Positions 44,523 to 59,976 of a stretch of DNA of 64,000 nt are shown here, in pieces. The notes under the pieces are model-generated. The model had not been told where the DNA came from, did not search any database, and saw only the letters and a program-made list of their open reading frames with translations. A program made the translations under genes and the position numbers. This stretch comes from Promicromonospora sp. AC04 (GTDB lineage: Bacteria; Actinomycetota; Actinomycetes; Actinomycetales; Cellulomonadaceae): the NCBI RefSeq assembly GCF_003058225.1, contig NZ_QBUG01000009.1:1-64000 (forward strand). The letters run 5' to 3'. Each line of letters opens with the position of its first letter. The stretch's first letter is position 1.

Positions 44523-44529
44523 CCCGTTT

Positions 44530-44590
44530 GTCGAGTGCTGGGTACTTGCTGGTCCGACGCGGCAGCCCCAGCAAATACCCAGCACTCGAC
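44530..44590. terminator. Long bidirectional hairpin after the cellulase gene
   Basis: Arms of 23 nt (44530-44552 and 44568-44590) pair with one mismatch over a 15-nt loop. It separates the cellulase from a convergent gene. Confidence 0.7.
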
Positions 44591-44608
44591 GTGGAGGGGA
44601 GTGGGCGG

Positions 44609-45193
44609 TCAGGTGGCCGTGCGGCGCACGACGGTGCGGCTGAGGGTGCCCGTCAGCAGGGACCAGACGGCGGAGCCGATGACGATCCAGACGACCGCGG
44701 CGAGGACGGCCGGCACCGGATCGGAGAGATCGGCGAACGGCACGGCGGCGAGGATCACGGTGGCGAGGGAGACCACCCAGCCGAAGAACGCCCGGGGACG
44801 CGGCGTGCTCAGGACGAGCAGATAGAGCACGATCGCGGCCGCGAGGGCGAAGAGCGCGCCCGCCACGACCCAGGCCATCGCGTCGGAGCCGGTGCCGAAC
44901 AGGTCGGCCTGCGGCTGGATCTCCAGGTTCAGGACGTCCTCGAGGATGAAGTCCGCGGCCAGCCCGATGAGGGCGGCCACGAGCATCGTCGCCAGCGCTC
45001 CGGCCCAGTAGCGGCCGACTTCCAGGCCGAGGCGCGGGTTCTGCGTGCCGGACGTGACGGGCTGGACGACCTCTTCGTCGGGGCCGTGCCCCAACGGCTG
45101 GGTCGGCGTTCCCGGGGTCTGCGCCGGCGGCGGATAGGCGGGCGGCGGCTGCTCCCCGTAGTCGGGGTCATAGGGGCGGTTCGGGTCGCTCAT
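44609..45193 (-). CDS. Small Pro-rich four-helix membrane protein (DUF6069-like)
   Basis: A 194-residue protein. The first 55 residues are Pro/Gln/Tyr-rich and cytoplasmic. Four hydrophobic helices follow (ALATMLVAALIGLAADFI, AWVVAGALFALAAAIVLYLLVL, FFGWVVSLATVILAAVPF and a last near VLAAVVWIVIGSAVW). The layout resembles actinobacterial proteins called DUF6069. No function is known. GGGAGGT is upstream of the ATG. It is divergent from the ABC exporter. Confidence 0.65.
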   Translation of the reverse strand: MSDPNRPYDPDYGEQPPPAYPPPAQTPGTPTQPLGHGPDEEVVQPVTSGTQNPRLGLEVGRYWAGALATMLVAALIGLAADFILEDVLNLEIQPQADLFGTGSDAMAWVVAGALFALAAAIVLYLLVLSTPRPRAFFGWVVSLATVILAAVPFADLSDPVPAVLAAVVWIVIGSAVWSLLTGTLSRTVVRRTAT

Positions 45194-45317
45194 CGCGGTA
45201 CCTCCCGGTTGTAAGCCCTATGTCCACTCCACCACGGATCGGGCGGGGTTGCACGGCGCGGGGCGAAGGGATCGGGGCGCGACCGCGGAGCTTCCCGTCC
45301 GTGTCGGTGACCCGTCC

Positions 45318-45330
45318 TACTGTGTGTGGC

Positions 45331-45331
<1 letters not shown>
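45318..45331 (+). promoter_or_regulatory. Probable leaderless promoter of the ABC-2 exporter operon
   Basis: TACTGT (45318-45323) ends 7 nt before the ATG at 45331; no Shine-Dalgarno sequence is seen. Confidence 0.5.
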
Positions 45332-46259
<928 letters not shown>

Positions 46260-46260
<1 letters not shown>

Positions 46261-47087
46261 TGAGCACCGACGTCTTCACCGCACGCGGGGGCCACGGCCC
46301 GCGCCCGCCGCTGGCGACCCGCGAGCGGGTGGGCGCCGTGACCGGGTACATGCTGCTCGTCTACCGGCGCACGCTGCGCGGCACCATCATCAGCACGTTC
46401 CTGTCCCCGCTGTTCTTCCTGCTGGCCATGGGCATCGGCCTGGGCTCGCTGATCGACGAGCGCACCGGCGGCGTCGGAGGTGTGCCGTACCTGCAGTTCG
46501 TGGTGCCGGCGATCGTGGCCATGCAGACCATGTGGCTCGCCATGTTCGAGGCCACCTATCCGGTGATGGACTACATCAGGTGGAGCAAGCTCTACGACTC
46601 CATGCTCGCCACCCCGCTACGCGTGCGGGACGTCATGGTGGGGCACATCGGCTCCATCGCCGGCCGGCTGGTCCTCGCCACCTCCGTGTTCATGCTCGTC
46701 GCCGCCCTGTTCGGCGGGTTCGCCACATGGGGCGCGCTGTGGTGCCTCCCGATCGCCGTGCTCACCGGCCTCGCGTTCACGGTCCCCATCTTCGGATTCA
46801 CCGCCACCCAGCAGAACGAGGACGGGTTCAACATCCTGTTCCGCCTGATCGCGACCCCGCTGATGCTGTTCAGCGGCACCTTCTTCCCGATCGACCAGCT
46901 CCCGGTGTGGATGCAGCCGCTCGCCTGGGTGACCCCCCTGTGGCACGGCGTCGAGTCCGCGCGCATGGTCGCCCTGGGGACCGTCGACCCGCCCTGGCTG
47001 GCCCTGCACACCGGCGTGCTCCTGATGTTCGTGCTGGTCGGGTGGGTCCTGTGCGAACGTGCGCTGACGAAGAGGCTCGTCACATGA
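46260..47087 (+). CDS. ABC-2 type permease, first subunit
   Basis: A 275-residue membrane protein of the NodJ/DrrB type with six helices. YMLLVYRRTLRGTIISTFLSPLFFLLAMGIGLG opens the domain in two parts, and FNILFRLIATPLMLFSGTFFPIDQLPVW followed by TPLWHGVE is the family signature near the C-terminus. It pairs with the next gene. The start overlaps the ATPase stop by one base. Confidence 0.88.
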
Positions 47088-47923
47088 GCACGACGACGGC
47101 GCCCGCAGCGCGTCCCGGCCTCGCCTCCCGCATCGCCCGCGCCGTGCCGATCCCCGCCGGCGCCGGGATGGCGCGCATGCTCGTCGAACGCAACGTCCGC
47201 GCCTACCGGCACCTGTGGGTCGCACTGGTCACGGGCTTTGCCGAGCCGGTGTTCTACCTGTTCTCCATGGGGATCGGCATCGGCGGCCTGGTCCGCACCG
47301 TCACCACCGACAACGGCGCCGAGGTGCCCTACGCGGCGTTCGTGGCCCCCGCCCTGCTCGCGGCGTCCGCCATGAACGGCGCCGTCTTCGACTCCACGTT
47401 CAACGTGTTCTGGAAGCTCAAGTACGCCAAGCTGTACGACGCCGTGCTGGCCACCCCGCTCGGCCCGCGGGACATCGCGGTGGGCGAGATCTGCTGGTCG
47501 CTCATCCGCGGCGCCGTCTACTCCGCCCTCTTCCTGGTCGTCGCCGCGCTCGCGGGCGCCGTCACCTCGTGGTGGGCGCTGCTCGCCCTCCCCGCTGCCG
47601 TCCTCATCGGGTTCGCGTTCGCAGCGATCGGGATGTTCGCCACCACGTTCATCCGCTCCTGGGTGGACTTCGACTACGTGACCCTCGCGATCCAGCCCAT
47701 GTTCCTGTTCAGCGCCACGTTCTTCCCGCTGGCGACCTACCCGCCGGCCCTGCAGTGGCTGGTGCAGGCGACGCCGCTGTACCACGGCGTCGCGCTCGAG
47801 CGGGCGCTCATGCTGGGCCAGGTGGACTCCGGGATCTGGGTGCACGTGGCCTACCTGGTCGGACTCGGCCTGGTGGGCCTGGTCGCGGCGTCGGCCCGGC
47901 TGGAGAAGCTGCTGCTGTCGTGA
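47084..47923 (+). CDS. ABC-2 type permease, second subunit
   Basis: A 279-residue paralogue of the preceding permease with the same order of motifs (RAYRHLWVALVTGFAEPVFYLF near the N-terminus, PMFLFSATFFPLATYPPALQW and TPLYHGVALE near the C-terminus). The pair presumably forms a heterodimer driven by the ATPase at 45331. It overlaps the previous gene by 4 bp and ends just before a hairpin shared with the convergent ebo-type operon. Confidence 0.88.
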   Translation: MSTTTAPAARPGLASRIARAVPIPAGAGMARMLVERNVRAYRHLWVALVTGFAEPVFYLFSMGIGIGGLVRTVTTDNGAEVPYAAFVAPALLAASAMNGAVFDSTFNVFWKLKYAKLYDAVLATPLGPRDIAVGEICWSLIRGAVYSALFLVVAALAGAVTSWWALLALPAAVLIGFAFAAIGMFATTFIRSWVDFDYVTLAIQPMFLFSATFFPLATYPPALQWLVQATPLYHGVALERALMLGQVDSGIWVHVAYLVGLGLVGLVAASARLEKLLLS

Positions 47924-47932
47924 GCGCCGCCT

Positions 47933-47961
47933 GGTCAGACCCGGGTGACCCGGGCCTGACC
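47933..47961. terminator. Bidirectional hairpin between the exporter and ebo-type operons
   Basis: GGTCAGACCCGGG (47933-47945) pairs with CCCGGGCCTGACC (47949-47961) with one mismatch over a TGA loop, between two convergent operons. Confidence 0.65.
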
Positions 47962-47968
47962 CGGCGGC

Positions 47969-49369
47969 CTAGCGCACCCCCTGCAGGTCCAGCACCAGGC
48001 CCTTCACGGCCGACGCCGGCACCTGGCCGGCGTCGTCCTCGACCCAGCGGGAGACCGCCGCGGGGATCCGCGCGTCCGAGCACAGGACGAGCGGCGTGTC
48101 CGCGGCCGAGTCGGGCAGCCGGCCGTGGGTGCCGCGCACGTACGACGCGTCGAGCGGGGTGGTGCCCATCGCGTACCGCAGGCCGAGCTTCTTGCGCACC
48201 AGGTTCAGGCCCGCCTTGGCCTTGGCCAGCGGGTCGGCGGGGTTGAAGAACAGCTCGGCGGGGTCGTAACCCGGCTTGCGGTGGATGTCGACGCCGCGGG
48301 CGTACTCGGGCGCGCGGTCGTCGTCGAGCCAGAAGTAGTAGGTGAACCACGAGCCAGGCTCGGCCACGACCACCAGCTCGCCCGCCCGCTCGTGGTCCAG
48401 CCCGTACTTCGCCTGCGCCGCGCGGTCCAGCACCTCGTCGACGCCGGGCACCGCGCGCAGCAGGTCCGCGACCCGGGCGGCGTCAGCGGGGTCGTCGACG
48501 TAGACGTGCGCCACCTGGTGGTCCGCGACGGCGAAGGCGCGCGACGTCCAGGGGTCCAGCTGCTCCCGGCCGTCCTGCACGTAGACCTCCAGGAAGCCCT
48601 CGGAACGCAGGATGCGGTTGATGTCCACCGGCCGGTTCGCCTGCCCGATGCCGTACTCCGAGACGGCCACGACGGTGACGCCCGCCGCCTCGGCGTCGTC
48701 GAGCAGGGGCGCCAGGACGGCGTCCAGCTCGGCCGCCGCCCGGTCCGCCTCCGGCGAGCTCGGGCCGAACCGCTGCAGGTCGTAGTCGAGGTGCGGCACG
48801 TACGCCGTCGTGAGGTGGGACGTCCGGGTGCGCAGCAGGTGCCGGGTCACGTCGACGATCCACCGGCTCGACGCGATCGACGCCGTCGGGCCCCAGTAGG
48901 TGAACAGGGGGAAGTCGCCGAAGCGGCCCGTCAGCTCGTCGTGCATGGCCGCCGGCCGGACGTACGCGTCGGGCGACTTGCGGCCGTCGGCGTGGTAGAT
49001 CGGGCGCGGGGTGACGGTGACGTCGGTGGTCATCCCCATCGCGTACCACCAGCACACGTTGTCGGCGCGGTAGCTCGGATCCAGCGCGCGGCCCGCCTCC
49101 CACAGCTTCTCGCCCGCGACGAGCCGGTTGTGCTGACGCCACAGGTACACGTCGCCCAGCTCGCGGAAGTACCAGCCGTTGCCGACGATCCCGTGCTCGG
49201 CAGGCGTCAGCCCGGTCAGCATCGTGGACTGCACGCTGCAGGTCACCGCGGGCAGCACGGTGGCGAGCTCGGACTGCCAGCCGGACTCCGCGAGCCGGCG
49301 CAGGCGCGGCATGTGGGCCAGCGCGCGGGCGGTGAGCCCGACGACGTCGAGCAGCAGGACGGGCTTCAT
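47969..49369 (-). CDS. eboF: Alkaline phosphatase/nucleotide pyrophosphatase family protein (EboF-like)
   Basis: A 466-residue member of the alkaline phosphatase superfamily. It begins KPVLLLDVVGLTARALAHMP, where Asp 8 can serve as a first metal ligand, and LPAVTCSVQSTMLTGLTPAEHGIVGNGWYFR holds the probable nucleophile Thr (VTCSVQ) and metal His. Later metal sites are near YVPHLDYDLQRFG and ADHQVAHVYV. It would hydrolyse a phosphate or phosphodiester in the cytoplasm, as it has no signal peptide. The ATG overlaps the stop of the EboE-like gene. It is the last gene of the operon, and the assignment to EboF rests on neighbours as well as family. Confidence 0.75.
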   Translation of the reverse strand: MKPVLLLDVVGLTARALAHMPRLRRLAESGWQSELATVLPAVTCSVQSTMLTGLTPAEHGIVGNGWYFRELGDVYLWRQHNRLVAGEKLWEAGRALDPSYRADNVCWWYAMGMTTDVTVTPRPIYHADGRKSPDAYVRPAAMHDELTGRFGDFPLFTYWGPTASIASSRWIVDVTRHLLRTRTSHLTTAYVPHLDYDLQRFGPSSPEADRAAAELDAVLAPLLDDAEAAGVTVVAVSEYGIGQANRPVDINRILRSEGFLEVYVQDGREQLDPWTSRAFAVADHQVAHVYVDDPADAARVADLLRAVPGVDEVLDRAAQAKYGLDHERAGELVVVAEPGSWFTYYFWLDDDRAPEYARGVDIHRKPGYDPAELFFNPADPLAKAKAGLNLVRKKLGLRYAMGTTPLDASYVRGTHGRLPDSAADTPLVLCSDARIPAAVSRWVEDDAGQVPASAVKGLVLDLQGVR

Positions 49370-50670
49370 GCGTCCACTCCCTCGGTGACGGTGGCTTCGG
49401 GGACAGCGGATCCGGTGCCGGGGACTCCGGTGACGGCGGTTCGAGCGACAGGGGCACCGGTCGCGAGCAGGTGTTCCCCGGCCCAGCGCAGCTCGGCCGC
49501 GATCCCGGCCACCAGGCCGGCCTCCCCGCCCGCGGCGGCAGCTCCCACCGCGCCGCCAGCCCCGCCGGCAGCCCCGCCGCCCGCCACGCCGTCCGGCAGC
49601 ACCGACCACGTGTAGGTCTCGACGTCGAGGTGCGCCTCGGCCCCGTGCGGTGCGGCGCGCACCGCGGCGACGGCGTCGCGCAGCACGCTGGTCGTCGCCG
49701 CCAGCGGCGCGGCCGGCTCGTGGTGCAGCGGCACGTGGAAGTGCACCCGCCACGGCCCGACGCCCGGCAGGGCCGGGCGCCCGGTCGTGTCGCCGAGTGC
49801 AACGGGCAGGTCGTCGGAGGCCAGCACCTCGCCCGACGGCGCGAGCTCGCCCACCTGGTGCAGGTAGCGCTGCTCGACGAACCGGCCCACGGCGTCCCGT
49901 GCGCCCGGCGCGGACAGGTCGGCGACCTCCAGTGCCGCGGAAGCCTGCACCTTGACCACGCGCAGGCCGGCATCGGTGATCCGCCGGACCGCGCCCGCCG
50001 GGTCCGCGAACGACACCGCCAGGTGGCACGTGTCCAGGCAGACGCCGACGTGCTCGGGGTCGATGCGCCGGTCGTCCGGCACCTCGGGGCCCGTGCGCGC
50101 GGCGAGCCACGCGACGACGTCCTCCACGGTGTCCAGCACGCACCCCGGCTCGGGCTCGACGGCGACGCGCACGGTCCGGCCCGTGCGCAGCGCGAGCTCG
50201 CGCAGCTCGGCGGACAGGGTGGCGAAGGCCCGGGTCGCCTCGTCGTCGTCGGCCCGGGTCCAGGGGGCGCGCCAGGCCAGGGGGAGGGTCGAGATCGACC
50301 CCGCGGTGCCCTCGGGCAGCAGGTCGGCCAGCACCCGGGCGCACGCCAGGACGTAGTCGAGCCGGGCCCGCTCGGCCCAGGTGGGGGAGTACACCGCGAG
50401 CTTGACGACCTCGCGGTGGAAACCGCCGTACGGGAAGGCGTTGAGGGTGTGCACCCGGAGCCGGTGCTCGGCGAGCGCAGCGCGCAGCCGGTCCCGGTCC
50501 GCGGCGGACGTGTCCAGGCGGTGCGCCAGCTCGGCGGGCAGCCACAGCCCGACGCTGAGCGTGTCGAGGCCCGCGGCCTCGCGCACCGGGCCGGAGTACC
50601 GGGCGAGCTGGTCGAGCACGCCGTCGAGGTCCTCGGCGGGGTGCACGTTGGTGCAGTAGGAGAGCAGCAT
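49366..50670 (-). CDS. eboE: EboE-like TIM-barrel metabolite traffic protein
   Basis: A 434-residue protein of the xylose-isomerase-like TIM-barrel type. It begins MLLSYCTNVHPAEDLDGVLDQL and has LNAFPYGGFHREVVKLAVY, VAVEPEPGCVLDT and VGVCLDTCHLAV, with Glu, Asp and His residues that probably bind metal; a late VHFHVPLHHE is also characteristic. The group is named EboE, metabolite traffic protein, after its role in export or processing of a secondary metabolite in cyanobacteria. A Gly/Ala-rich insert (about 365-385) comes from biased DNA. GAGGAGGCTGA-type sequence precedes the ATG. Confidence 0.82.
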   Translation of the reverse strand: MLLSYCTNVHPAEDLDGVLDQLARYSGPVREAAGLDTLSVGLWLPAELAHRLDTSAADRDRLRAALAEHRLRVHTLNAFPYGGFHREVVKLAVYSPTWAERARLDYVLACARVLADLLPEGTAGSISTLPLAWRAPWTRADDDEATRAFATLSAELRELALRTGRTVRVAVEPEPGCVLDTVEDVVAWLAARTGPEVPDDRRIDPEHVGVCLDTCHLAVSFADPAGAVRRITDAGLRVVKVQASAALEVADLSAPGARDAVGRFVEQRYLHQVGELAPSGEVLASDDLPVALGDTTGRPALPGVGPWRVHFHVPLHHEPAAPLAATTSVLRDAVAAVRAAPHGAEAHLDVETYTWSVLPDGVAGGGAAGGAGGAVGAAAAGGEAGLVAGIAAELRWAGEHLLATGAPVARTAVTGVPGTGSAVPEATVTEGVDA

Positions 50671-50681
50671 CGTCAGCCTCC

Positions 50682-51560
50682 TCAGGCTCGCGCGCCGCGG
50701 AGCACGGACGAGCCCTCGAACTCCACGCCGGGCGTCGGGGGAGCGCCCTCGGTGAACCCGGGAACGGGATCGAGCACCAGGTTTCCCGACTGCTCGTAGA
50801 AGGCGACCGGGTTGCGCCACAGCACCTGGTCGACGTCGTCGTCCGAGAAGCCGGCGGCCAGCATCGCCTGCCCCGTCCGGGCGGTCTTGAGCGGGTCGGA
50901 GCGCCCCCAGTCCGCGGCGGAGTTCACGATCATGCGGTTGATGCCGTACTCCTTCAACAACGCCACCATGCGGTCCTCGTCCATCTTGGTGTCGGGGTAG
51001 ATCGAGAACCCGGCCCAAGCGCCGGCGTCGCGCACGAGGGCGACGTTGGTCTCGTTGAGGTGGTCCACGAGCACCCGTTCCGGCGCCAGGCCGGACTCGC
51101 GCACGACGTCGAGCGTCCGGTGCGTTCCCGCGAGCTTGTCGCGGTGCGGGGTGTGCACGAGGACGGGGAGCTCGGCCTCCTGGGCCATCCGTAGCTGTGC
51201 GGCGAACACCTCGTCCTCCTCGGGGGTCATCGAGTCGTAGCCGACCTCGCCGACGGCCACGACGCCGTCCTTGAGCAGGTAGCGCGGAATCTCGGCGAGC
51301 ACCTCGCGGCAGCGCGGGTCGTTCGCCTCCTTGGGGTTGAGCGCGATCGTCGCGTGGTGCCGGATGCCGAACTGCGCGGCCCGGAACCTCTCCCAGCCGA
51401 GCAGGGAGTCGAAGTAGTCGGTGAACGAGCCCACACTGGTGCGGGGCTGGCCCAGCCAGAACGCGGGCTCGACGACGGCGCGCACACCCGCCGCGTACAT
51501 CGCCTCGTAGTCGTCGGTGGTGCGGCTCGTCATGTGGATGTGCGGGTCGAGGATGCGCAT
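50682..51560 (-). CDS. eboB: TatD-family metal-dependent hydrolase (EboB-like)
   Basis: A 292-residue amidohydrolase-fold protein. The metal motif HxH appears as DPHIHMTSRT at the N-terminus. GVVAVGEVGYDSMTPEEDE supplies the bridging Glu, VLVHTPHRDK and VLVDHLNETNV the further His ligands, and the last Asp lies in NSAADWGRSDPL. TatD relatives are nucleases or hydrolases, but in ebo clusters the substrate is unknown. It follows the EboA-like gene by 2 bp and precedes eboE by 11 bp. Confidence 0.82.
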   Translation of the reverse strand: MRILDPHIHMTSRTTDDYEAMYAAGVRAVVEPAFWLGQPRTSVGSFTDYFDSLLGWERFRAAQFGIRHHATIALNPKEANDPRCREVLAEIPRYLLKDGVVAVGEVGYDSMTPEEDEVFAAQLRMAQEAELPVLVHTPHRDKLAGTHRTLDVVRESGLAPERVLVDHLNETNVALVRDAGAWAGFSIYPDTKMDEDRMVALLKEYGINRMIVNSAADWGRSDPLKTARTGQAMLAAGFSDDDVDQVLWRNPVAFYEQSGNLVLDPVPGFTEGAPPTPGVEFEGSSVLRGARA

Positions 51561-51562
51561 CG

Positions 51563-52372
51563 TCACTCCCTGGTGTCCGTGAGCCTGCTGTTCGTGGGTC
51601 CGGTGTTCGTGGACCGGGTGCTCGCAGGCCGTGTGCTCGTGAGCCGGTCGAGGTCGGTCGGTACGGCACGCCCCGCGGCCCGGCGTTCCGCGGCGAAGTC
51701 GCGGGCCATGCGCGCGAGCTCGTCGTCGGCCCGGGCGTCGAGGCCGCTGACGGCGTCGAGGCTCACGCCCTGGAACACGAGCTTGAGCACCGCGTGCCGC
51801 CACGTGTGCTGATCCAGGTGCCGGGACCCGAACGGGCCGACGGCGGCCGCGACGAGGCTGGGGTCGTTGGCGCGCAGGGCGTCGGCGGCGAGCTCGATGC
51901 CCGTGGTCACGAGCTCGGCCGTTCCGGTGGGGCGGGCGTCGTCGGTCGGGGCGTCGACAGGGCGGGAGACGCCGGTCTGGGCGTCGGTTGGGCGTGGGCG
52001 GGCGTCGTTGGAGCTGGCGGCGCCGTCGTGGCCGGGCCCGGCCCGCCCGAGGTCGCCCCGAGCCTCGAGCGCGTCGAGGCCCCGCAGCACGCCGCGCCGT
52101 TCGGCGGCGTCCCCCTGCCGGTAGAGGAGCCCCAGGCGCTCGGCGTAGTCCGGCCCGGTCCCCACGGCGTCGGCCAGCGCGACGACGAGCGCCGCCCGGG
52201 CGGCGTCGTCGGCCGTGCCGTGCACGACGCCGGCCGGGTCGGCGTCGGGCCGCAGCGGTGCGCGCCCCACCCGGCGGGCGGCAAACGCGAACGCGCGTGT
52301 GACGCTGTCCGGGTCACGTGCGACCTCGGCGCGCGCCTCGGTGAGCCAGCCGGAGCCGGGCGACTCGTTCAT
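51563..52372 (-). CDS. eboA: EboA-domain protein
   Basis: A 269-residue protein matching the EboA type, a helical family of unknown biochemical role found only in ebo-type clusters. TAELVTTGIELAADALRANDPSLVAAAVGPFGSRHLDQHTWRHAVLKLVFQGV, read in parts, is the typical C-terminal core. The internal stretch with repeated RPTDA/RPVDAPTDD and the end STRPASTRSTNTGPTN are low-complexity additions encoded by degenerate 15-bp-like repeats. The ATG overlaps the upstream TIM-barrel stop. The name rests on pattern memory and context; sequence search would settle it. Confidence 0.72.
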   Translation of the reverse strand: MNESPGSGWLTEARAEVARDPDSVTRAFAFAARRVGRAPLRPDADPAGVVHGTADDAARAALVVALADAVGTGPDYAERLGLLYRQGDAAERRGVLRGLDALEARGDLGRAGPGHDGAASSNDARPRPTDAQTGVSRPVDAPTDDARPTGTAELVTTGIELAADALRANDPSLVAAAVGPFGSRHLDQHTWRHAVLKLVFQGVSLDAVSGLDARADDELARMARDFAAERRAAGRAVPTDLDRLTSTRPASTRSTNTGPTNSRLTDTRE

Positions 52373-53262
52373 GACAGGGCCCTCTCGCCGGTGGTCGGGC
52401 TGGTCCCGGCGACCGTCGCCCACGCCCGGAGCAGGGCGGCGCGGCTGTGGCGGGCGAGCCGGGGTGCGTCGTGGGAGTGGCGGGGCAGCTCGACGGCGGC
52501 GACCCCCGTGTAGCCGATGTCGGCGAGCGTGGCGAGCACGAGCGGCAGGTCGATGCCGCCCTGGCCGAACGGGCGGTGCTCGTGGTGCGTGGGCGGCATG
52601 TCGTCGAGCTGCACGTTGCTCAGGTACGGCGCCGCGGCACGCAGGGCACCCTCGACACCGTCTGGCTCGACGACGAGGCAGTGCCCGACGTCGACGGTGA
52701 TCCCCAGCTCGGGCGGCGCGCCGACATCGGAGCGGAGCCGCAGAGCGTCGTCGACGGTCTCGACGAGCATGCCCGGCTCCGGTTCGAGAGCGAGCCGCAC
52801 CCCGCGCTCCCCGGCGTACTCGACGAGCGCCGGGACGCGATCGCGGAGCCTGGCCCAGCCGTCGGCGGGGTTGGCGTCGTCCGGGAGGACACCCGAGAAG
52901 AACGAGACGCACCGGGCCTCGAGGTCCGCCGCGATCTCGATGGCGCGTTCGAGGAAACGCATCCGGAGGGTGGCGTCGCGGTCGACGAGTGTGGGCCGGT
53001 GCTTGTGCAGCGGGTCGAGCAGGTAGCGCGTGCCCGTCTCGACGACGACCGCCGCTCCCGCGCCCCCGCGCATCCGCCGGAGGTGGGCGCGCAGCGCAGC
53101 GACGTCGTCGCCGGCGAGGGGAGCGAACGGGTCCAGGTGCGGGAAGCCGAGGGTGACCGCCACCGCGTCGTACCCGACGTCGTCCAGCACGTCCAGCGCG
53201 ACGCGGAGGGGATGGTCCCCGAAGCCGTTGGTGCCGTAACCCAGGAGGAAGGGAGGCCTCAC
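52369..53262 (-). CDS. Sugar-phosphate isomerase/epimerase-like TIM barrel protein
   Basis: A 297-residue xylose-isomerase-like barrel. Metal ligands are suggested by RLALEPEPGMLVETVDD (Glu), LGITVDVGHCLVVE (Asp, His), SNVQLDDMPPTHHEHRPFGQGGIDL (Asp, His) and GVAAVELPRHSHD (Glu). The motif order is that of IolE/IolI-type inosose isomerases and dehydratases. With an inositol-phosphate-synthase-like enzyme two genes upstream, an isomerase acting on a cyclitol is a fair inference. GTG start overlapping the UbiA stop; its stop overlaps eboA. Confidence 0.8.
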   Translation of the reverse strand: MRPPFLLGYGTNGFGDHPLRVALDVLDDVGYDAVAVTLGFPHLDPFAPLAGDDVAALRAHLRRMRGGAGAAVVVETGTRYLLDPLHKHRPTLVDRDATLRMRFLERAIEIAADLEARCVSFFSGVLPDDANPADGWARLRDRVPALVEYAGERGVRLALEPEPGMLVETVDDALRLRSDVGAPPELGITVDVGHCLVVEPDGVEGALRAAAPYLSNVQLDDMPPTHHEHRPFGQGGIDLPLVLATLADIGYTGVAAVELPRHSHDAPRLARHSRAALLRAWATVAGTSPTTGERALS

Positions 53263-54338
53263 GTGATGCTCACCCCCGCCCGGCCGCGGGTGCGGCTCAG
53301 CAGCCGGAGCCCGTAGCCGACGGCGGCGACCCCGGCCAGGAGCGCCGTCGTGCCCAGGCCGCCGGAGCGTGCCGCCCACGCGGCCTGCAGCGGCACCATC
53401 GCCTGGATCCCGGACCGCGTGGCGGTCCGCGCGTTGGCCGCCGTGGGCCGCGCGGCCGCGCGGACCTGCGCCGGCGCACAGGCCGCGGCGTAGGCGGTGG
53501 CGGCCGCGACCGTGGTCCAGCGGGCGGCGGTCTGGCGGGCGGTGGGAGCTGTGGTCGTGGGTGTGGCGGCCGCCGCCACCGCACCCGCTATCGTGCCCGC
53601 GGCGACGACGCCGGCGACCTGCGCCGTCGTGCCGTGCACCTCGCCGCGGGAGAGCACGGTGACGCCGAGAGTGTGGGCCGTGAGCCCCGCCGCGGCGGGG
53701 AGCGCCGACCGCATGCGCCCGGGTGTGGCGCCGAGCAGCACGTCCAGCCCGCGGCACGCCGCCATGACGAACGGCCCGGCCGGCCGGTCCTTGGCGACCA
53801 GGTCGTACGTCCATACGCAGGCGGCGAGCGGTACGGCCACGCCGAGCGCACGTCGCCCGCCGGCGACGCCGGCCGCTGCCACGCCGCCCGCCGTGAGGGC
53901 CGCGCCGATCGCGATCGCGGCCCGCGGCGTCACCCGGCCCGACGGGATGGGCCGCTCGGGCCGCTCGACCGCGTCGACGTGCCGGTCGGCGTAGTCGTTC
54001 AGCGCCATGCCGCCCAGGTAGAGGCAGGCTGAGGCGACCGGCAGCAGGAGGTGGCGGCCGCGGATCGGGACGGGCGCGCCGGCTCGCTCGCCGGGGTGCG
54101 CGCCGACTTGTGCGGCGGCTCTCGCGCCGGCGCGTGCGGCAGCCAGGCCCGCCAGGGTGTCGCCGACGACGCTCAGGGCGGCGGGCGCCCGGACGAGCTC
54201 GGCGAGGTCTGCAAAGGTAGGTGTTCGCGGCCGGGGCTCTGCCCGGAACTGCGACCAGGGCTCTGACCTGGTCCGCCACCGGGAATCGGTCCGAGACTCG
54301 GACCGGTAGGCGAGCCGGGGCTCAGGCCGGGAACTCAT
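53259..54338 (-). CDS. eboC: UbiA-family prenyltransferase (EboC-like)
   Basis: A 359-residue membrane prenyltransferase. After about 65 Arg/Ser/Pro-rich residues come eight or nine short Ala-rich helices. The first Asp-rich motif NDYADRHVDAVERPERPIPSGRV binds the Mg-diphosphate of the prenyl donor; the second is the weaker YDLVAKDRPAG. The family transfers isoprenoid chains to aromatic or polar acceptors at the membrane. In ebo clusters this is the EboC gene. The start overlaps the stop of the inositol-phosphate-synthase-like gene. Acceptor and chain length are unknown. Confidence 0.82.
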   Translation of the reverse strand: MSSRPEPRLAYRSESRTDSRWRTRSEPWSQFRAEPRPRTPTFADLAELVRAPAALSVVGDTLAGLAAARAGARAAAQVGAHPGERAGAPVPIRGRHLLLPVASACLYLGGMALNDYADRHVDAVERPERPIPSGRVTPRAAIAIGAALTAGGVAAAGVAGGRRALGVAVPLAACVWTYDLVAKDRPAGPFVMAACRGLDVLLGATPGRMRSALPAAAGLTAHTLGVTVLSRGEVHGTTAQVAGVVAAGTIAGAVAAAATPTTTAPTARQTAARWTTVAAATAYAAACAPAQVRAAARPTAANARTATRSGIQAMVPLQAAWAARSGGLGTTALLAGVAAVGYGLRLLSRTRGRAGVSIT

Positions 54339-55561
54339 CGGCGGACCTGTGTCGAGGTGCGGCCGACCCATTCCTCGAGCGCGGCGGCCTGCTCGGCGGC
54401 GTCGTGCACGTCCGAGTCCCATGGATCCTTGAAGAAGAAGCCCAGCTCCTGGACCGTCCCGCTGATCCCCGCTGAGTGCGCGAGTGCGAGCAGGCGGGCC
54501 AGGTCGAGGACGAGCGGCGCGGCGAGCATCGAGTCGTGGGCGCTCCAGGTGGTCTGCAGCGTGAGCCGCGACCCGAGGAAGCCCTCGACGTGCACGTGGT
54601 CCCAGGCGACCTTGGTGTCGCCCAGGTCGGGCACGTTGTCGATGTGCAGCGGAGTGGTGTCGCTGCCGGTCAGCGCCCTCAGCCCGCGGTTCTTGCTGGC
54701 GAGCTTGCTGCGCACGGCGTCAGGGTCCGCGAGGGTGGCGCCGTCGCCGCCGCCCAGCAGGTTGGTGCCGGCCCACGAGAGCACCTTCAGCCCGCGCGCT
54801 GCGAACGCGGGGGCCAGGACGGTGCGCAGCCACGTCTGCCCGGTCTTGCCGTCCTGCCCCGCCACGGGGATGCCGCGCTCGCGCGCGAGCCGGGTCAGCG
54901 CGGGCAGGCCCATGCCCGCCGACGGCGTGAAGGCGGCGTACGCGGCTCCGGCAAGGATCGCCGCGTACGCCGAGACGGAGGACGCGGGGAGCACCGCGCG
55001 AGCCGGGTCGGCCAGGGCCGCGAGCAGGGCCTCGGGGTCGTAGAACTCCGGCACCGGGTCGACGGGCGGCTCCGTGGAGGACAGGTCGATCACGACGACT
55101 CGCGCCAGGGCATGCCGCTCCTGGAACGACGTGATGTCGGCGGCGAGCCGCTCGGCCGCGGCCTGCTGAGACCGGCCCTGTGGAGACCGGCCCTGCTGGA
55201 CGGCGTGCGGGTCGTAACCAGGCCGCACCTCGGCGTCGGCCCGTTCGAGGGCGTCGTGCGTCGCGGCGAGCAGCCGCGGCGGGATCATGCCGGTCTCGAC
55301 GAGAGCCTCCGCGCGCTTGGTCATGGTGACGGCGGAGATGTCGTGCCCGCCGACCACCAGGTCGGCGAACTCGGGGAGGCCGGCGGAGGCGAAGGGCTCG
55401 CGCGCGGTGACGCAGGCCGTCGGGGGTGACTGACCGTCGGCGATGGCCGCGAGGCCCAACGTGGCGGTGCTGGCCACGGAGCCGCGGGCCCCTATGAACC
55501 AGATCCCGGTGCGTGCTGAGGCTGCGGCGGCATGGTGGCGTGCAGAGGCGTGGTGCATCAT
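54335..55561 (-). CDS. Inositol-3-phosphate synthase-like enzyme
   Basis: A 408-residue NAD-binding enzyme of the inositol-1-phosphate synthase family, which turns glucose 6-phosphate into a cyclitol phosphate. The N-terminal Rossmann loop is IWFIGARGSVASTA. The catalytic half has GQDGKTGQTWLR, WAGTNLLGGGDGATLADPDAVRSKL in two overlapping pieces, and KVAWDHVHVEGFLGS followed by AAPLVLDLARLLALA. Residues differ from housekeeping Ino1 (for example TNLLGGGDG in place of NHLGNNDG). It is the first gene of the seven-gene ebo-type operon. The start has GGGGAG upstream of ATGATG; the frame is open to 55627. Confidence 0.83.
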   Translation of the reverse strand: MMHHASARHHAAAASARTGIWFIGARGSVASTATLGLAAIADGQSPPTACVTAREPFASAGLPEFADLVVGGHDISAVTMTKRAEALVETGMIPPRLLAATHDALERADAEVRPGYDPHAVQQGRSPQGRSQQAAAERLAADITSFQERHALARVVVIDLSSTEPPVDPVPEFYDPEALLAALADPARAVLPASSVSAYAAILAGAAYAAFTPSAGMGLPALTRLARERGIPVAGQDGKTGQTWLRTVLAPAFAARGLKVLSWAGTNLLGGGDGATLADPDAVRSKLASKNRGLRALTGSDTTPLHIDNVPDLGDTKVAWDHVHVEGFLGSRLTLQTTWSAHDSMLAAPLVLDLARLLALAHSAGISGTVQELGFFFKDPWDSDVHDAAEQAAALEEWVGRTSTQVRR

Positions 55562-55724
55562 CGCTCCCCGGTTCGACTTCGACTTCGTCGTCCCGAGCAA
55601 CCTATCCGGACTTATGGCGATTAGCAAACAAAAGTTCGGAGTTGTTCGGAAGAAGCGTGATTCCTGTAGCCCCGACCCTTGGCCGCAGTTCTGGACACCT
55701 CTTCCGTCAGCCGTCTCGCTGTGG

Positions 55725-55738
55725 CACTATGACCCGCA
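55725..55738 (+). promoter_or_regulatory. Probable leaderless promoter of the cimA leader
   Basis: CACTAT (55725-55730) ends 7 nt before the leader-peptide ATG and resembles a -10 box with A2 and T6 conserved. A ribosome-binding site is absent. Confidence 0.4.
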
Positions 55739-55794
55739 TGACTCAGCGCCTCACCCCGAGCTCTACCCTGCGACAGGTGATCATCATTTCGTAG
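55738..55794 (+). CDS. cimA leader peptide
   Basis: An 18-codon frame encodes MTQRLTPSSTLRQVIIIS and ends just where the first attenuator hairpin starts. The control codons Val-Ile-Ile-Ile stand directly before the last codon, so a ribosome short of charged Ile-tRNA would stall there and open the hairpin. This matches the isoleucine pathway role of the following citramalate synthase gene. Two hairpins and a T run come next. The peptide has no other sign of function. Confidence 0.82.
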   Translation: MTQRLTPSSTLRQVIIIS

Positions 55795-55824
55795 CGCGTC
55801 CGGCGAGAACCCCACCGGACGCGC
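55794..55824 (+). promoter_or_regulatory. First attenuator hairpin of cimA
   Basis: GCGCGTCCGG (55794-55803) pairs perfectly with CCGGACGCGC (55815-55824). Its 5' arm starts at the last base of the leader stop codon, so a ribosome at the end of the leader would block it. Confidence 0.7.
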
Positions 55825-55854
55825 AGACCTTCCACACCCGGAGGGTCTTTTTTT
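55825..55854 (+). terminator. Attenuator terminator of cimA
   Basis: AGACCTTCC (55825-55833) pairs with GGAGGGTCT (55840-55848), with one G-T pair, and a seven-base T run follows. It is a classical intrinsic terminator ahead of the cimA gene and adjoins the first hairpin. Confidence 0.85.
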
Positions 55855-55910
55855 GTTGGCCTGAAGATCCGACCTCAGCCACATCGCCAGCCACATCGTT
55901 GGGAGCATCG

Positions 55911-57542
55911 ATGACCACCGCCTCGTTCCAGGTGTACGACACGACGTTGCGCGACGGCGCGCAGCAGGAGGGTATGAACCTCTCCGTCTCAGACAAGCTC
56001 GCCATCGCGGTACTGCTCGACGAGCTCGGCGTCGGCTACATCGAGGGCGGCTGGCCGGGCGCGGTACCCAAGGACACCGACTTCTTCGCCCGCGCCGCCA
56101 CCGAGCTGACCCTGAAGAACGCGGTGCTCGCCGCGTTCGGCGCCACCCGCCGGGCGGGTGTCCGCGCGGGCGACGACCCGCAGGTGCGCGCACTGCTCGA
56201 CGCCGCCACCCCCGTGGTGACGCTCGTGGCCAAGTCGGACGTCCGGCACGTGGAGCGCGCGCTGAAGACGACCCGCGCCGAGAACCTCGCGATGATCACC
56301 GACACCGTCGCGTTCCTCGTCGCGGAGGGCCGCCGGGTGGTGCTCGACGCCGAGCACTTCTTCGACGGCTACCGGTACGACCCGCAGTACGCGACCAGCG
56401 CCGTCAGCGCCGCGTTCGACGCCGGCGCCGAGGTGGTCACCCTCTGCGACACCAACGGCGGCATGCTGCCCACCTGGGTCGGCGAGATCGTGAGCGAGCT
56501 GCGCGCCGGCGCCGCCGTCGGGCCGGAGCAGCGGCTCGGGGTGCACGCGCACAACGACACCGGCTGCGCCGTCGCGAACTCGCTCGCCGCCGTCGAGGCG
56601 GGCGCCACCCACGTGCAGGGCACGGTCAACGGGTACGGCGAGCGCACCGGCAACGCGGACCTGGTCACGGTCGTGGCGAACCTCGAGCTGAAGGCCGGCA
56701 TGTCCCTCCTGGCCGACGGCGGCCTGCGGGAGGCCGCCCGGATCTCGCACGCCATCAGCGAGATCACGAACATCTCGCCGTTCGCGCGCCAGCCGTACGT
56801 CGGGGCGAGCGCGTTCGCCCACAAGGGCGGCCTGCACGCCAGCGCCATCCGGGTGGACCCGGACATGTACCAGCACACCGACCCCACCCTGGTCGGCAAC
56901 GACATGCGCATGCTCGTATCGGACATGGCGGGCCGCGCCTCGATCGAGCTCAAGGGCCGCGAGCTGGGCTTCGACCTCGCCGGCCAGGGCGAGCTGCTCT
57001 CCCGGGTCACGAACCGCGTGAAGGACGACGAGGCCGCCGGCTACACCTACGAGGCGGCCGACGCGTCGTTCGAGCTGCTGCTGCGGTCCGAGCTGGGGCA
57101 GCGCCCGGACTTCTTCACCGTCGAGTCGTGGCGCACCATCGTGGAGACCGTCCCGGCGGGCGCGGCCCCGCCGTCGGTCCACGCGCCCGACGCCGCCGCC
57201 GTCGCCGAGGCGACCGTCAAGATCTGGGCCGGCGGCGAGCGGATCGTGACGACGGGGGAGGGCAACGGCCCCGTCAATGCGCTGGACCAGGCGCTGCGCA
57301 CCGCGCTGTCGCGGGTCTACCCGGAGCTCAGCCGGTTCGAGCTCATCGACTTCAAGGTCCGCATCCTCGACATGGAGCTCGGCACGGGTGCGATCACGCG
57401 GGTGCTCACCGAGACCACCGACGGCGAGCACTCCTGGTCCACGGTCGGCGTGGGGCCCAACATGATCGAGGCCGCGTGGGAGGCCGTGACCGAGGCGTAC
57501 GTGTACGGCCTGCTGAAGTCGGGCGTAGAGCCCCGCCCCTGA
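55911..57542 (+). CDS. cimA: Citramalate synthase
   Basis: A 543-residue enzyme of the LeuA/CimA family that condenses pyruvate with acetyl-CoA to (R)-citramalate, the entry of the threonine-independent isoleucine route. The N-terminal barrel shows YDTTLRDGAQQEGMNLS, the metal-binding HAHNDTGCAVANS and GTVNGYGERTGNADL. The C-terminal LeuA dimer regulatory domain (about 400-530) should give isoleucine feedback control. YIEGGWPGAVPKDTDFF is characteristic of CimA rather than LeuA. The frame is open far upstream, but the ATG at 55911, with GGGAG before it, lies after the attenuator. Confidence 0.93.
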   Translation: MTTASFQVYDTTLRDGAQQEGMNLSVSDKLAIAVLLDELGVGYIEGGWPGAVPKDTDFFARAATELTLKNAVLAAFGATRRAGVRAGDDPQVRALLDAATPVVTLVAKSDVRHVERALKTTRAENLAMITDTVAFLVAEGRRVVLDAEHFFDGYRYDPQYATSAVSAAFDAGAEVVTLCDTNGGMLPTWVGEIVSELRAGAAVGPEQRLGVHAHNDTGCAVANSLAAVEAGATHVQGTVNGYGERTGNADLVTVVANLELKAGMSLLADGGLREAARISHAISEITNISPFARQPYVGASAFAHKGGLHASAIRVDPDMYQHTDPTLVGNDMRMLVSDMAGRASIELKGRELGFDLAGQGELLSRVTNRVKDDEAAGYTYEAADASFELLLRSELGQRPDFFTVESWRTIVETVPAGAAPPSVHAPDAAAVAEATVKIWAGGERIVTTGEGNGPVNALDQALRTALSRVYPELSRFELIDFKVRILDMELGTGAITRVLTETTDGEHSWSTVGVGPNMIEAAWEAVTEAYVYGLLKSGVEPRP

Positions 57543-57547
57543 AACCG

Positions 57548-57628
57548 AGAGCTCTGGCGAGACCGAACCGGGGCGAGACAGAACTGCTGAGGTTCTGTCT
57601 CGCCCCGGTTCGGTCTCGCCAGAGCTCT
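57548..57628. terminator. 37-bp perfect hairpin between cimA and the RpiR gene
   Basis: Two arms of 37 nt (57548-57584 and 57592-57628) are exact reverse complements around a 7-nt loop. It lies between convergent genes and starts five bases after the cimA stop. It is the longest perfect palindrome I saw in the window. Confidence 0.85.
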
Positions 57629-57644
57629 ACTTCGGCGGGGCGGG

Positions 57645-58559
57645 TCAGACGACCGGTGCGGCCGGGCGCTCCACCTTGTTCGGACCGTTCCCGAAGTCGA
57701 GGCGCTGGTCGCGCACGGCGTCGAACGTCGCCTTGATCGCGATCGACGAGCGCTCGAAGGTGCGCTGGGCGACGCGGACGAACAGGTAGTCCACGACCGT
57801 GAGCTGCGCGATGCGGCTGGACATCGCTCCGACCCGGAACTGGGTCTCGCGGGCGGTGGTGGCCAGGACGACGTCGGACACCAGGCCGATCGGGGCGTCC
57901 GGGAAGTTCGTGATCGCCGCCGTGAGCGCGCCACGCTTGCGCGCGATCTCGAGCGCCTGGTTGGTCTCGCGCGTCTGTCCCGAGTGCGAGACGGCGATCG
58001 CCACGTTGCCCGGCTCGAGCAGCGCCGACGAGGCGAGCTGCTGGTGCGGGTCGGGGGAGCTGAACACGAACACGCCGATGCGCTGCAGCTTCATCGCGAG
58101 GTCGGCGGCGGCGAGGTTGGACGAGCCGACGCCGTAGACGTCCACCCGCTTGGCCTCGGAGATGGCCGTGGCCACCCGCTCGATCGCATCGGTGTCGATC
58201 ATGCGCGCGGTCTCTTCGATGGTGCGGGCCTCGTGGAACGCGATCTTCGAGACGACGGCCTCGATGTCGTCGGTCTGGTTGATCTCGCCCTCGGCGATGC
58301 CGGACCGCTCCATCTCGACCTCGCGCCGGCTGGTCGCCTGTGCCAGGTCGATCCGGAACTCGGGGTAACCGGCGTAGCCGACGGCACGGCAGAACCGCAC
58401 CACCGTGGCCTGTGACGTGTCCGCGTGACCGGCGAGCTCGGTGATGGTCGACTGGACGACAGTGTTCGGGTCGTCGAGGACCGTCTGCGCGACTCTCGCC
58501 TCTGCTGGTCGCAGCGTCGGTAGTGCGCGCCTGAGTCGGACGAGGACGTCACCTGACAT
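57645..58559 (-). CDS. MurR/RpiR-family transcriptional regulator
   Basis: A 304-residue regulator. The N-terminal winged helix-turn-helix (about 1-77) contains TITELAGHADTSQATVVRFCRAVGYAGYPEFR in successive pieces. The C-terminal SIS domain (about 125-255) has VYGVGSSNLAAADLAMKLQRIG and AVSHSGQTRETNQAL and binds a phosphosugar. It probably senses an amino-sugar phosphate and controls the neighbouring kinase or sugar importer. GGGAG precedes the ATG. It lies 111 bp downstream of the kinase gene on the same strand. Confidence 0.9.
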   Translation of the reverse strand: MSGDVLVRLRRALPTLRPAEARVAQTVLDDPNTVVQSTITELAGHADTSQATVVRFCRAVGYAGYPEFRIDLAQATSRREVEMERSGIAEGEINQTDDIEAVVSKIAFHEARTIEETARMIDTDAIERVATAISEAKRVDVYGVGSSNLAAADLAMKLQRIGVFVFSSPDPHQQLASSALLEPGNVAIAVSHSGQTRETNQALEIARKRGALTAAITNFPDAPIGLVSDVVLATTARETQFRVGAMSSRIAQLTVVDYLFVRVAQRTFERSSIAIKATFDAVRDQRLDFGNGPNKVERPAAPVV

Positions 58560-58670
58560 GTCGCATCTCCCGGGATGGGGTGGTGGGGCTAGGGGTCGAG
58601 AACATACACCCGTACCGGGGATTCGGGCACAACGGGGTAGTGAAGGAACGCGTCGGTGAACAGCCGTCGT

Positions 58671-59801
58671 TCACTGACGCTCGTCGCCGGGCAGATCGGT
58701 CGCCGACAACCCTGCGCTGAGGGTATCCGCGGCCCCCATGTCTTCGGTGGTCTCCGCACTGGTGTGGTGGCCGTCGACGCGGACGGTTAGCCAGGGCCGG
58801 AAGCCGCCCACGGCGTGCGGCGTCTCGCGCAGGCGCTGGGCCAGCTTGAGCGCTCCGTCGAGGGGCGACCCGGCGCTGGGGACGAGCGAGACCTCGGGCC
58901 GGTCCTCGGAGAGGTGCTTGGTGAGCGACACCGTGAGCGGCGACTCCTCCTGCACCAGGCGGCCGGTCGTGGAGGCGAGCGGCGGGATGCCCCGGCCGAG
59001 CGCGCTCGACAGCGTGTCGGCGAGGTGCCGGCCCGCTTCCTCGAGGATGCGGATCGACGTCGGGTCGCCCTCAGCCGCGGCGATCATGACCTCAGGGGCC
59101 ATCGAGGCGAGCTGCCGGGCGCGCTCCGCGTTCTTGTAGAACTGGTTGGGCCAGCTCTCGATGAGGCCGAACTTGGCGACGGCTGCCTCGAGGAGGCGCT
59201 TCGATGCGCCACGGCTCGCGCCGTCGTGGTACCGACCGGCAGCGCGCAGCGCCTCGCCGCCGACCCAGACGCCCGCGCCCAGGTCGCCGAGCAGGTGTCC
59301 CCAGCCGTCCGCGCGACGCCAGCGGCTCACGCCGTCGAACCCGAAGGCAACGGCGCCAGTGCCTACCGACAGCACGGCTCCGGCTCGGCCGGCCAGCGCA
59401 CCGAGGTGGGCGGTGAGCGCGTCACCGGCGACGGCGGTGCGGTTGGTCCGCAGCTCGCGGGCGAGGATGTCGTGCACATCGGTCGGCTTCTCGACCAGCG
59501 AGGTCAGGCCGGTGATGCCGACAGCGGCGGAGGCGACGGGCGCGGTGCTGCCGTCGCTCATCCCGTCGTGGCCCATGCGGGCGGCCCACGCGTTGAAGGA
59601 CTGGCACAGGGACGCGACGACAGCCGGGGCATCGCTGCCCTGGTGGTTCACCTTGACGGCGCGGCCGCTCAGGCTGATGCGCTCGGGGTGTGTTGAGTTG
59701 CCGAATTCAGCGACAAGGCGCGAGCCACTGCCGCCTACGTCGAGAGCGACGACCCAGGCGTCGACCGCCGCTCCATCAATACCCTGTGAGAGTTCGGACA
59801 C
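58671..59801 (-). CDS. BadF/BadG-type N-acetylglucosamine kinase-like protein
   Basis: A 376-residue ASKHA-fold ATPase. The phosphate-1 loop is VVALDVGGSGSRLVAEFG, the second ATP motif is AVLSVGTGAVAFGFDG, and GWGHLLGDLGAGVWVGGEALRAA is the typical BadF/GlcNAc kinase segment. It probably phosphorylates an amino sugar such as N-acetylglucosamine using ATP. Start placed at the GTG (VSELSQGIDG), because residues upstream are untypical; a weak ribosome site leaves this uncertain. It is divergent from lplA and shares a control region with two palindromes. Confidence 0.8.
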   Translation of the reverse strand: MSELSQGIDGAAVDAWVVALDVGGSGSRLVAEFGNSTHPERISLSGRAVKVNHQGSDAPAVVASLCQSFNAWAARMGHDGMSDGSTAPVASAAVGITGLTSLVEKPTDVHDILARELRTNRTAVAGDALTAHLGALAGRAGAVLSVGTGAVAFGFDGVSRWRRADGWGHLLGDLGAGVWVGGEALRAAGRYHDGASRGASKRLLEAAVAKFGLIESWPNQFYKNAERARQLASMAPEVMIAAAEGDPTSIRILEEAGRHLADTLSSALGRGIPPLASTTGRLVQEESPLTVSLTKHLSEDRPEVSLVPSAGSPLDGALKLAQRLRETPHAVGGFRPWLTVRVDGHHTSAETTEDMGAADTLSAGLSATDLPGDERQ

Positions 59802-59897
59802 CAGGTCATTCTGACACGAAACCAGGGCAAGATTGTCTAAAGAGAGGAGGAAATTCTGGTCTGTTCTGCTGCCTCTTCTCGCCAAATATCGGACGTG

Positions 59898-59970
59898 CCC
59901 GACGTCGGGCCCACCTTCCGTACCCAAGGTTCACCCGACGTCGGACACCACAGGCACCGTCGCCTACTGT
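59898..59970. promoter_or_regulatory. Paired CCGACGTCGG palindromes and lplA promoter
   Basis: CCGACGTCGG occurs twice, at 59899-59908 (extended to a 12-bp perfect palindrome) and 59935-59944, 36 bp apart centre to centre. The second touches a -35 candidate (CGGACA, 59942-59947) placed 17 bp before TACTGT (59965-59970), which ends 6 nt before the lplA GTG. The pair lies between the divergent kinase and lplA genes and looks like an operator. Confidence 0.55.
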
Positions 59971-59976
59971 GAACAC

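Follow-up and report, generated by a model that had tools for sequence, protein, structure and literature searches.

What would an ebo operon make when the cyclase EboD is missing and another carbocycle-forming enzyme opens the operon? This question is raised by seven co-directional genes on the minus strand (47969-55558) of a stretch of 64,000 nucleotides from Promicromonospora sp. AC04 (GCF_003058225.1; positions 1-64,000 of contig NZ_QBUG01000009.1, hereafter the window), which encode, in order, an Ino1-like protein, a UbiA prenyltransferase, the TIM barrel protein TIM2, EboA, EboB, EboE and EboF. We show by sequence comparison that Ino1 and TIM2 replace EboD while the rest of the ebo set is retained. 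We consider it probable that the operon is an alternative ebo pathway, with this two-gene module in the place of EboD, that would make a prenylated cyclitol. Scytonemin maturation has been linked to the ebo genes, and so has the resistance of a Pseudomonas to grazing by nematodes (PMC6282210); the ebo operon is also reported to be necessary in Nostoc for the export of a metabolite precursor.

The operon and the absence of EboD

The families of the window genes were assigned with Pfam and NCBIfam models, which together with the coordinates confirmed the seven-gene set of the initial annotation. The first gene, ino1 (54335..55558; starting at an ATGATG, 55561/55558), encodes a divergent inositol-phosphate-synthase family member of 407 aa (PF07994, 5e-50; PF01658, 7e-30). 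At the place of eboC follows a ubiA gene (53259..54338; 359 aa, PF01040) whose product scores 310 bits on the SCO3242-family model NF045897 (cut-off 260) and 146 bits on the EboC model (cut-off 250). TIM2 (52369..53262; 297 aa) is a xylose-isomerase-like TIM barrel (PF01261), and EboA (51563..52372; 269 aa) has no Pfam family, reaching 143.7 bits on the EboA domain model NF035938 (cut-off 50) and falling below the EboA family model NF035937 (56.7 bits, cut-off 320). EboB (50682..51560; 292 aa) is a TatD-like metallohydrolase (PF01026, E value 1.6e-12) at a conserved position, EboE (49366..50670; 434 aa) is a TIM barrel scoring 414.1 bits on NF035939 (cut-off 250), and EboF (47969..49369; 466 aa) belongs to the type I phosphodiesterase/nucleotide pyrophosphatase family (PF01663, E value 3e-58). 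The genes had been described as nearly all overlapping by 4 bp, which holds for four of the six junctions; eboA and eboB are separated by 2 bp, and eboB and eboE by 11 bp. The closest named loci are those of other Promicromonospora, with Ino1 proteins 84-89% identical. The operon shares EboA, EboB, EboE, EboF and UbiA in one cluster with the EboD-type ebo operon (Yurchenko et al., 2016, PMC5133447; Klicki et al., 2018, PMC6282210), from which it differs in the absence of EboD, in the presence of Ino1 and a second TIM barrel, and in a UbiA protein that lies above the cut-off of the SCO3242 model and below that of the EboC model.

The initial annotation held that no EboD was present, and this applies to the genome (6.85 Mb) as well as to the operon. 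An eboD gene elsewhere was rejected, since the single DHQ synthase match of the genome, at 345.6, exceeds the cut-off of 305 set for the aroB equivalog; an EboD-type protein from an actinobacterial locus described below (L042) scores 208.7 there, too low to pass, and 563 on PRK06203, above the cut-off of 333. Nor is Ino1 the only inositol synthase of the organism: the second of two PF01658 matches in the genome, on contig C3, qualifies as the mycothiol INO1 equivalog with 700.7 bits against a cut-off of 638, whereas the window Ino1 reaches 32.1 bits on the same model (TIGR03450) and is therefore distinct from the housekeeping protein.

Distribution of Ino1 and EboD among ebo loci

EboE was found in 27 of 396 Actinomycetota genomes, in 26 of them above the cut-off. 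With the window Ino1 as query, 25 of the same 396 genomes, each of them EboE-positive, gave matches of 298 bits or more, 26 in total; the next matches scored 228 and 223 bits, and none of the 369 EboE-negative genomes contained a match of at least 298 bits. All but one of these 26 ebo-type Ino1 copies lie within 6 kb of eboE, the remaining genome having a fragmentary operon copy, and 25 of the 29 eboE loci in the 27 genomes have an ebo-type Ino1 at most 6 kb away. We further retrieved 64 named actinobacterial loci via Ino1, ten of which were too short and 54 of which extend far enough downstream. The order ino1-ubiA-tim-eboA-eboB-eboE-eboF is conserved in 53 of the 54, the sole exception (L071) lying on a disordered scaffold; TIM2, EboA, EboB, EboE and EboF were matched in all 54 loci and UbiA in 53, with the TIM2 of one locus (L043) divided between two frames. 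Because gene order is retained to this extent, the operon is more than a chance arrangement, and ino1 proves to be conserved beside the ebo genes in relatives, a point on which the initial annotation had depended. A single reading frame encodes both TIM2 and EboA in several Arthrobacter-type loci, in agreement with a published remark that EboA of actinobacteria carries a fused xylose-isomerase-like region (PMC5133447).

Plasmid records were compared by accession and position across the EboE, Ino1 and EboD searches, the last taking in the best 40 of 115 records, with the rest ranking lower. Among the 47 plasmid records with EboE, 29 carry Ino1, 15 carry EboD (among the matches listed) and three carry neither. 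Ino1 lies within about 5.3 kb of eboE in 28 actinobacterial records and in Gemmatirosa. The 15 records with EboD beside eboE are, among the matches listed, from Azospirillum, Roseivivax, Ketogulonicigenium (five), Salipiger (two), Mycetohabitans (three), Deinococcus (two) and Aureibacter, and no Ino1 match was found in any of them; no plasmid record among the matches listed (for EboD, the best 40 of 115) had both cyclases. The plasmid counts are not independent, because many of the Streptomyces records are near copies.

In the Verrucomicrobiota, EboE was found in 49 of 145 genomes, 48 of which were analysed for cyclases (the centre genome, G397, being left out). EboD was present in 47 of the 48 at 278-409 bits, and an Ino1 match at 1e-10 in none. 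Six further Verrucomicrobiota found via Ino1 had no EboD, their best DHQ synthase match scoring 142 bits or being absent at 1e-20. At the level of loci, 40 of the 47 above-cut-off eboE loci were read (the genome-level cyclase counts covered all 48 genomes): EboD was near eboE in 19 and neither cyclase was near in 21, and Ino1 or TIM2 was near eboE in none of the 40. Single absences in this phylum are weak, because genome completeness is not given.

EboD and ebo-type Ino1 were thus not seen together in the plasmids (among the matches listed), the Actinomycetota or the Verrucomicrobiota, and the replacement of EboD by Ino1 proposed in the initial annotation is well supported. As identified by profile matches, EboE is kept in both versions, and in clustered loci so are EboB, EboF, UbiA and usually EboA; profiles made from the Ino1-type proteins also detected EboB and EboF in EboD-type plasmid loci. 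No description of Ino1 in the place of EboD was found in the open literature searched, which largely does not cover subscription papers and preprints and which yielded the ebo papers cited here and two Streptomyces transcriptomes. The automatic annotation of NCBI already names the single genes.

Several observations weigh against this reading, as do those on the chemistry given below. Four of the 29 actinobacterial eboE loci have no full ino1 within 6 kb. They are the second locus of G123, a genome whose other eboE locus does carry ino1 (L038); G335:C3, where the in-operon ino1 is a fragment (residues 1-114 matched) and a full copy of the same clade lies on another contig; G244, where eboE was matched only as two partial pieces and a more distant Ino1 lies elsewhere in the genome; and G301 (L042), which has EboD instead of Ino1 and no TIM2. 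The counts of DHQ synthase matches, on the other hand, favour the replacement: G301 has two, and a single match was found in G123, in G335, in G244 and in each of the five Ino1-positive Verrucomicrobiota that were searched. Saccharomonospora also appears in the ebo-cluster figure of a paper whose available text names EboD (PMC9235831), and, with G301, this suggests that some actinobacterial ebo loci may not be of the Ino1 type. Three Streptomyces plasmids with eboE have neither cyclase (neighbourhoods read in plasmid records only), the Verrucomicrobiota genome G522 has eboE and neither cyclase, and a Gloeothece plasmid has EboD and no EboE match among the matches listed. One locus (L045) carries ino1 and lacks TIM2, and another (L035) shows the reverse; in both cases the genome contains a further locus where the two genes are present. 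Finally, the EboE-like proteins of five Ino1-type Verrucomicrobiota score 162-206 bits, below the cut-off of 250.

Ino1, TIM2, UbiA and the proposed pathway

Ino1 is likely to be an active sugar-phosphate cyclase. Its nearest solved sequence is the mIPS 1u1i (E value 2e-61), followed by 1gr0 (5e-8) and Ari2 (6k96; 9e-8); we take 1u1i to be from A. fulgidus and 1gr0 from M. tuberculosis. Both Pfam domains and the K-x-x-x-K pair are present, and the six MIPS active-site positions N266, K285, K289, K316, D342 and K377 correspond, as counted from the alignment, to N255, K274, K278, K306, D332 and K367 of 1u1i, the roles of which we in part presume. Three of the six are the sites that differ in entries 3qvw, 3qvx and 3qw2, and none of the six varies among the 44 ebo-type rows or the 29 other rows. 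The K-x-x-x-K pair is essential in rice MIPS (PMC5614600). The window Ino1 is alike to the inositol-1-phosphate synthases 1u1i and 1gr0 in sequence family and in all the active-site positions tested, and it stands apart from them in a separate ebo-linked clade. In quick trees, one of them made without 49 of the 60 loci L064-L123 and without the fragment L040, the 44 actinobacterial ebo-type rows fall on one side of a branch with an SH-aLRT of at least 99. A sister relation of the Verrucomicrobial Ino1 to this clade was rejected when both were held together (p-AU 0.0145); with Gemmatirosa added, the group has a support of 44, and for this reason one recruitment of Ino1 cannot be distinguished from two. 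Ari2, a five-membered cyclitol-phosphate synthase, offers a parallel as a MIP-synthase orthologue recruited to a special-metabolite pathway (PMC11188666), although the window Ino1 is only distantly similar to it and ebo genes are not mentioned with Ari2 in the available text of that paper.

The distribution of TIM2, searched with an alignment of 21 TIM2 proteins at a threshold of 1e-15 among at most 44 candidates per genome (fewer than some genomes offered), follows that of Ino1, so that the exchanged unit is most simply Ino1 plus TIM2. TIM2 was found in five of the six Ino1-positive Verrucomicrobiota (276-286 bits), directly before the EboE-like gene; the EboE-like match of the remaining genome is a fragment at the end of a contig. 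Among those candidates it was found in none of the 48 other eboE-positive Verrucomicrobiota and not in the EboD-type G301, and it was not found in five EboD-type plasmid loci, one of which, from Ketogulonicigenium, has another annotated sugar phosphate isomerase/epimerase. In the Ino1-type Verrucomicrobiota the ino1 gene is in a separate locus; three of the six genomes have an EboB-like gene at most about 3.3 kb from it, and EboF and UbiA genes are close to the EboE-like gene in one genome. In Gemmatirosa, TIM2, ino1, ubiA, eboF and eboB are on one strand and eboE is divergent.

The AlphaFold model of TIM2 (pLDDT 91.8) is ranked by Foldseek first with UlaE, an L-xylulose-5-P 3-epimerase (1.6e-15), then with L-ribulose 3-epimerase, D-tagatose 3-epimerase and YcjR, with IolI at rank 38; UlaE is also nearest by sequence (1e-9). 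The fold alone does not settle the reaction, because 801 chains match at 0.001. It is possible that TIM2 acts on the cyclitol, as first proposed, and since the top solved folds are ketose 3-epimerases it could equally act on a sugar phosphate before Ino1.

Two side observations concern related proteins. In L103 (8607-9995) and Cellulomonas relatives an extra TIM barrel, weakly like IolE (myo-inosose-2 dehydratase; 40.5 bits, cut-off 290), is directly upstream of ino1. In a different cluster (L135-L141, L179) a non-ebo Ino1 is paired with a TIM2-like protein, and both inspected loci of this cluster contain YcaO, with a methyltransferase in L136 and with two Gfo/Idh/MocA proteins and an HD-domain protein in the Hymenobacter locus L179.

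The solved sequence nearest to the window UbiA is DGGGP synthase (6m31, E value 6e-5), followed by chlorophyll synthase (5e-4). DGGGP synthase prenylates a hydroxyl of a glycerol phosphate ether. EboC is likewise described as closest to DGGGP synthases and archaeal UbiA homologues (PMC6282210), and it is on account of this shared nearest relative that we propose prenylation of a cyclitol phosphate. In the pathway that we envisage, Ino1 would turn a sugar phosphate, of which glucose 6-phosphate is the likeliest, into a cyclitol phosphate by oxidation, cyclisation and re-reduction; TIM2, whose fold is like that of metal-dependent ketose 3-epimerases, would adjust the keto-sugar or keto-cyclitol before or after cyclisation; and UbiA would add a prenyl chain to a hydroxyl of the polyol phosphate, as DGGGP synthase does with its glycerol phosphate ether. 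EboF would then remove the phosphate and EboB and EboE make further changes, while EboA may keep the enzymes together. A prenylated cyclitol bound to the membrane would result, serving the export of other metabolites or redox work on them. An isoprenoid-cyclitol hypothesis has been published for the EboD type (PMC5133447), and it gains weight from the fact that the alternative enzyme, too, is of a cyclitol-making family.

On the side of the chemistry, the roles given to Ino1, TIM2 and UbiA are predicted from sequence and fold, and the match of UbiA to DGGGP synthase is weak and partial, spanning residues 103-208 only. The assayed group of ebo-cluster UbiA proteins farnesylated aromatic quinolines, with 8-HQA preferred (PMC9235831), which speaks for aromatic acceptors instead of a cyclitol. 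The UbiA subtype is also not a strict marker of the cyclase type, and its use as such was not adopted. Moreover, the proposed EboD product is a phosphate-free C7 compound and myo-inositol 1-phosphate a phosphorylated C6 compound, which leaves two possibilities: different end products, or a different substrate for Ino1.

The first of these outcomes leads to the alternative that the ebo enzymes act as a general prenyl-polyol tail, with the Ino1 version yielding a prenyl-inositol whose role is unrelated to that of the EboD product. The rings given by known chemistry would fit this, as would the distinct UbiA subtype of actinobacteria and the differing neighbours (the GSDH genes described below); we nevertheless think it rather unlikely, as in Actinomycetota the EboE proteins of the two types lie above the same family cut-off (426 bits in G301, 414 in the window) and the cyclases were not found together, as expected for alternatives rather than for two products. 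The second outcome would have Ino1 cyclise sedoheptulose 7-phosphate, the substrate proposed for EboD (PMC5133447), to the C7 branched cyclohexane of EboD with the phosphate kept, TIM2 epimerising or isomerising it and thereby giving EboE and UbiA a common substrate in the two versions. Clustered loci of either type do contain EboB, EboE, EboF and UbiA (not all Verrucomicrobial loci being clustered), the best folds for TIM2 are ketose 3-epimerases that include the phosphoketose enzyme UlaE, and Ari2, matched here as 6k96, provides the precedent of a MIP-synthase orthologue acting on fructose 6-phosphate (PMC11188666). However, Ino1 is closer to the mIPS 1u1i than to Ari2, and we regard this explanation as unlikely. 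Still more speculative is an extension of it, in which two unrelated cyclase modules were swapped, perhaps repeatedly, into one prenyl-lipid pathway, the Ino1 version reaching the same C7 skeleton by Ari2-like cyclisation of sedoheptulose 7-phosphate, and the product serving as a general membrane cofactor or carrier, employed with exported metabolites as different as scytonemin, CDA-type peptides and type II polyketides and also by secreted sugar dehydrogenases. That Ino1 merely tops up the inositol which Actinobacteria use for mycothiol and lipids such as phosphatidylinositol, its place in the operon being incidental, is highly improbable given the separate mycothiol INO1 gene, the want of matches of at least 298 bits in EboE-negative actinobacterial genomes and the full copy retained by G335 beside its fragment.

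Neighbouring genes and significance

Genes of the glucose/sorbosone dehydrogenase (GSDH) family (PF07995) lie within 10 kb of eboE in 18 of the 27 eboE-positive actinobacterial genomes, from four genera, against 0.45 expected by random placement. Twelve of the 18 belong to one genus (g12, probably Streptomyces), none was found beside the 40 Verrucomicrobial eboE loci or in the plasmid loci read, and the window genome has five GSDH-family genes, none on the contig of the operon. We did not adopt GSDH as a pathway member, given the share of one genus, the absence of the window genome from the 18 and the lack of such genes in the plasmid loci read. Where g12 loci have one, the gene is upstream of ino1; in Arthrobacter and its kin it is downstream of eboF. 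In g12 and Glycomyces (L124) the GSDH frame or a neighbouring frame also has ThuA, PKD, CBM6 and 3-keto-disaccharide-hydrolase domains. The loci with GSDH-family genes beside an Ino1-type ebo operon are L037-L039, L041, L044, L046-L054, L058, L060, L088, L095-L099, L102-L104, L106, L108, L109, L113-L116, L121 and L124.

Two further neighbours in the window were rejected as parts of the system. A pair of ABC-2 permeases (46260-47923) gave matches only in the window itself, and a HMGL/LeuA-dimer gene (55911-57542), which we presume to be cimA, is beside the operon in just 15 of the 64 named loci, all from Promicromonospora, Myceligenerans and Isoptericola. Upstream of this divergent gene, at 55740-55860 on the plus strand, a short reading frame ending Val-Ile-Ile-Ile-Ser is followed by a hairpin-like stretch and a T run, and the segment looks like a branched-chain amino acid attenuation leader; an Rfam scan of 44000-60000 gave no match.

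The plasmid loci have neighbours of their own. Streptomyces plasmids carry lone eboE genes or eboB-eboE-eboF sets, one of them within a type II polyketide cluster. A Streptomyces plasmid operon of the Ino1 type (L154, 10639-17029) adjoins 4Fe-4S, amidase, glutamine synthetase and adenylosuccinate lyase genes, which presumably resemble kinamycin-type nitrogen-nitrogen bond genes. Among EboD-type loci, those of Mycetohabitans (L159, 2048-5066) and Aureibacter (L177, 11813-14873), from different phyla, both have a 'ferritin-like protein' and a large hypothetical protein adjoining the ebo genes, and two Gfo/Idh/MocA oxidoreductase genes stand directly before eboD in Ketogulonicigenium (L157, 4765-6811).

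The UbiA family of the window is named by NCBI after SCO3242 of Streptomyces coelicolor, which is listed with SCO3243 in the CDA cluster as 'putative transferase' and 'myo-inositol phosphate synthase' (PMC3610822). Going by the names, not by sequence comparison, SCO3243 would be the orthologue of the window Ino1, and L154 carries the same seven genes in the same order as the window. Both proteins are treated there as members of the antibiotic cluster, and no text reading them as a cyclase-exchanged ebo pathway was found in the parts of the literature available.

The ebo genes are a widespread and chemically unsolved bacterial gene set, and the existence of two versions narrows down the possible product. 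A natural cyclase swap sets bounds on the chemistry, since the substrate of EboE, EboB, EboF and UbiA would have to be reachable both from a dehydroquinate-synthase-like cyclase and from a MIPS-like cyclase together with a protein of the ketose-epimerase fold. If this is true, a pathway would also be gained for SCO3242 and SCO3243, until now placed with the CDA cluster.

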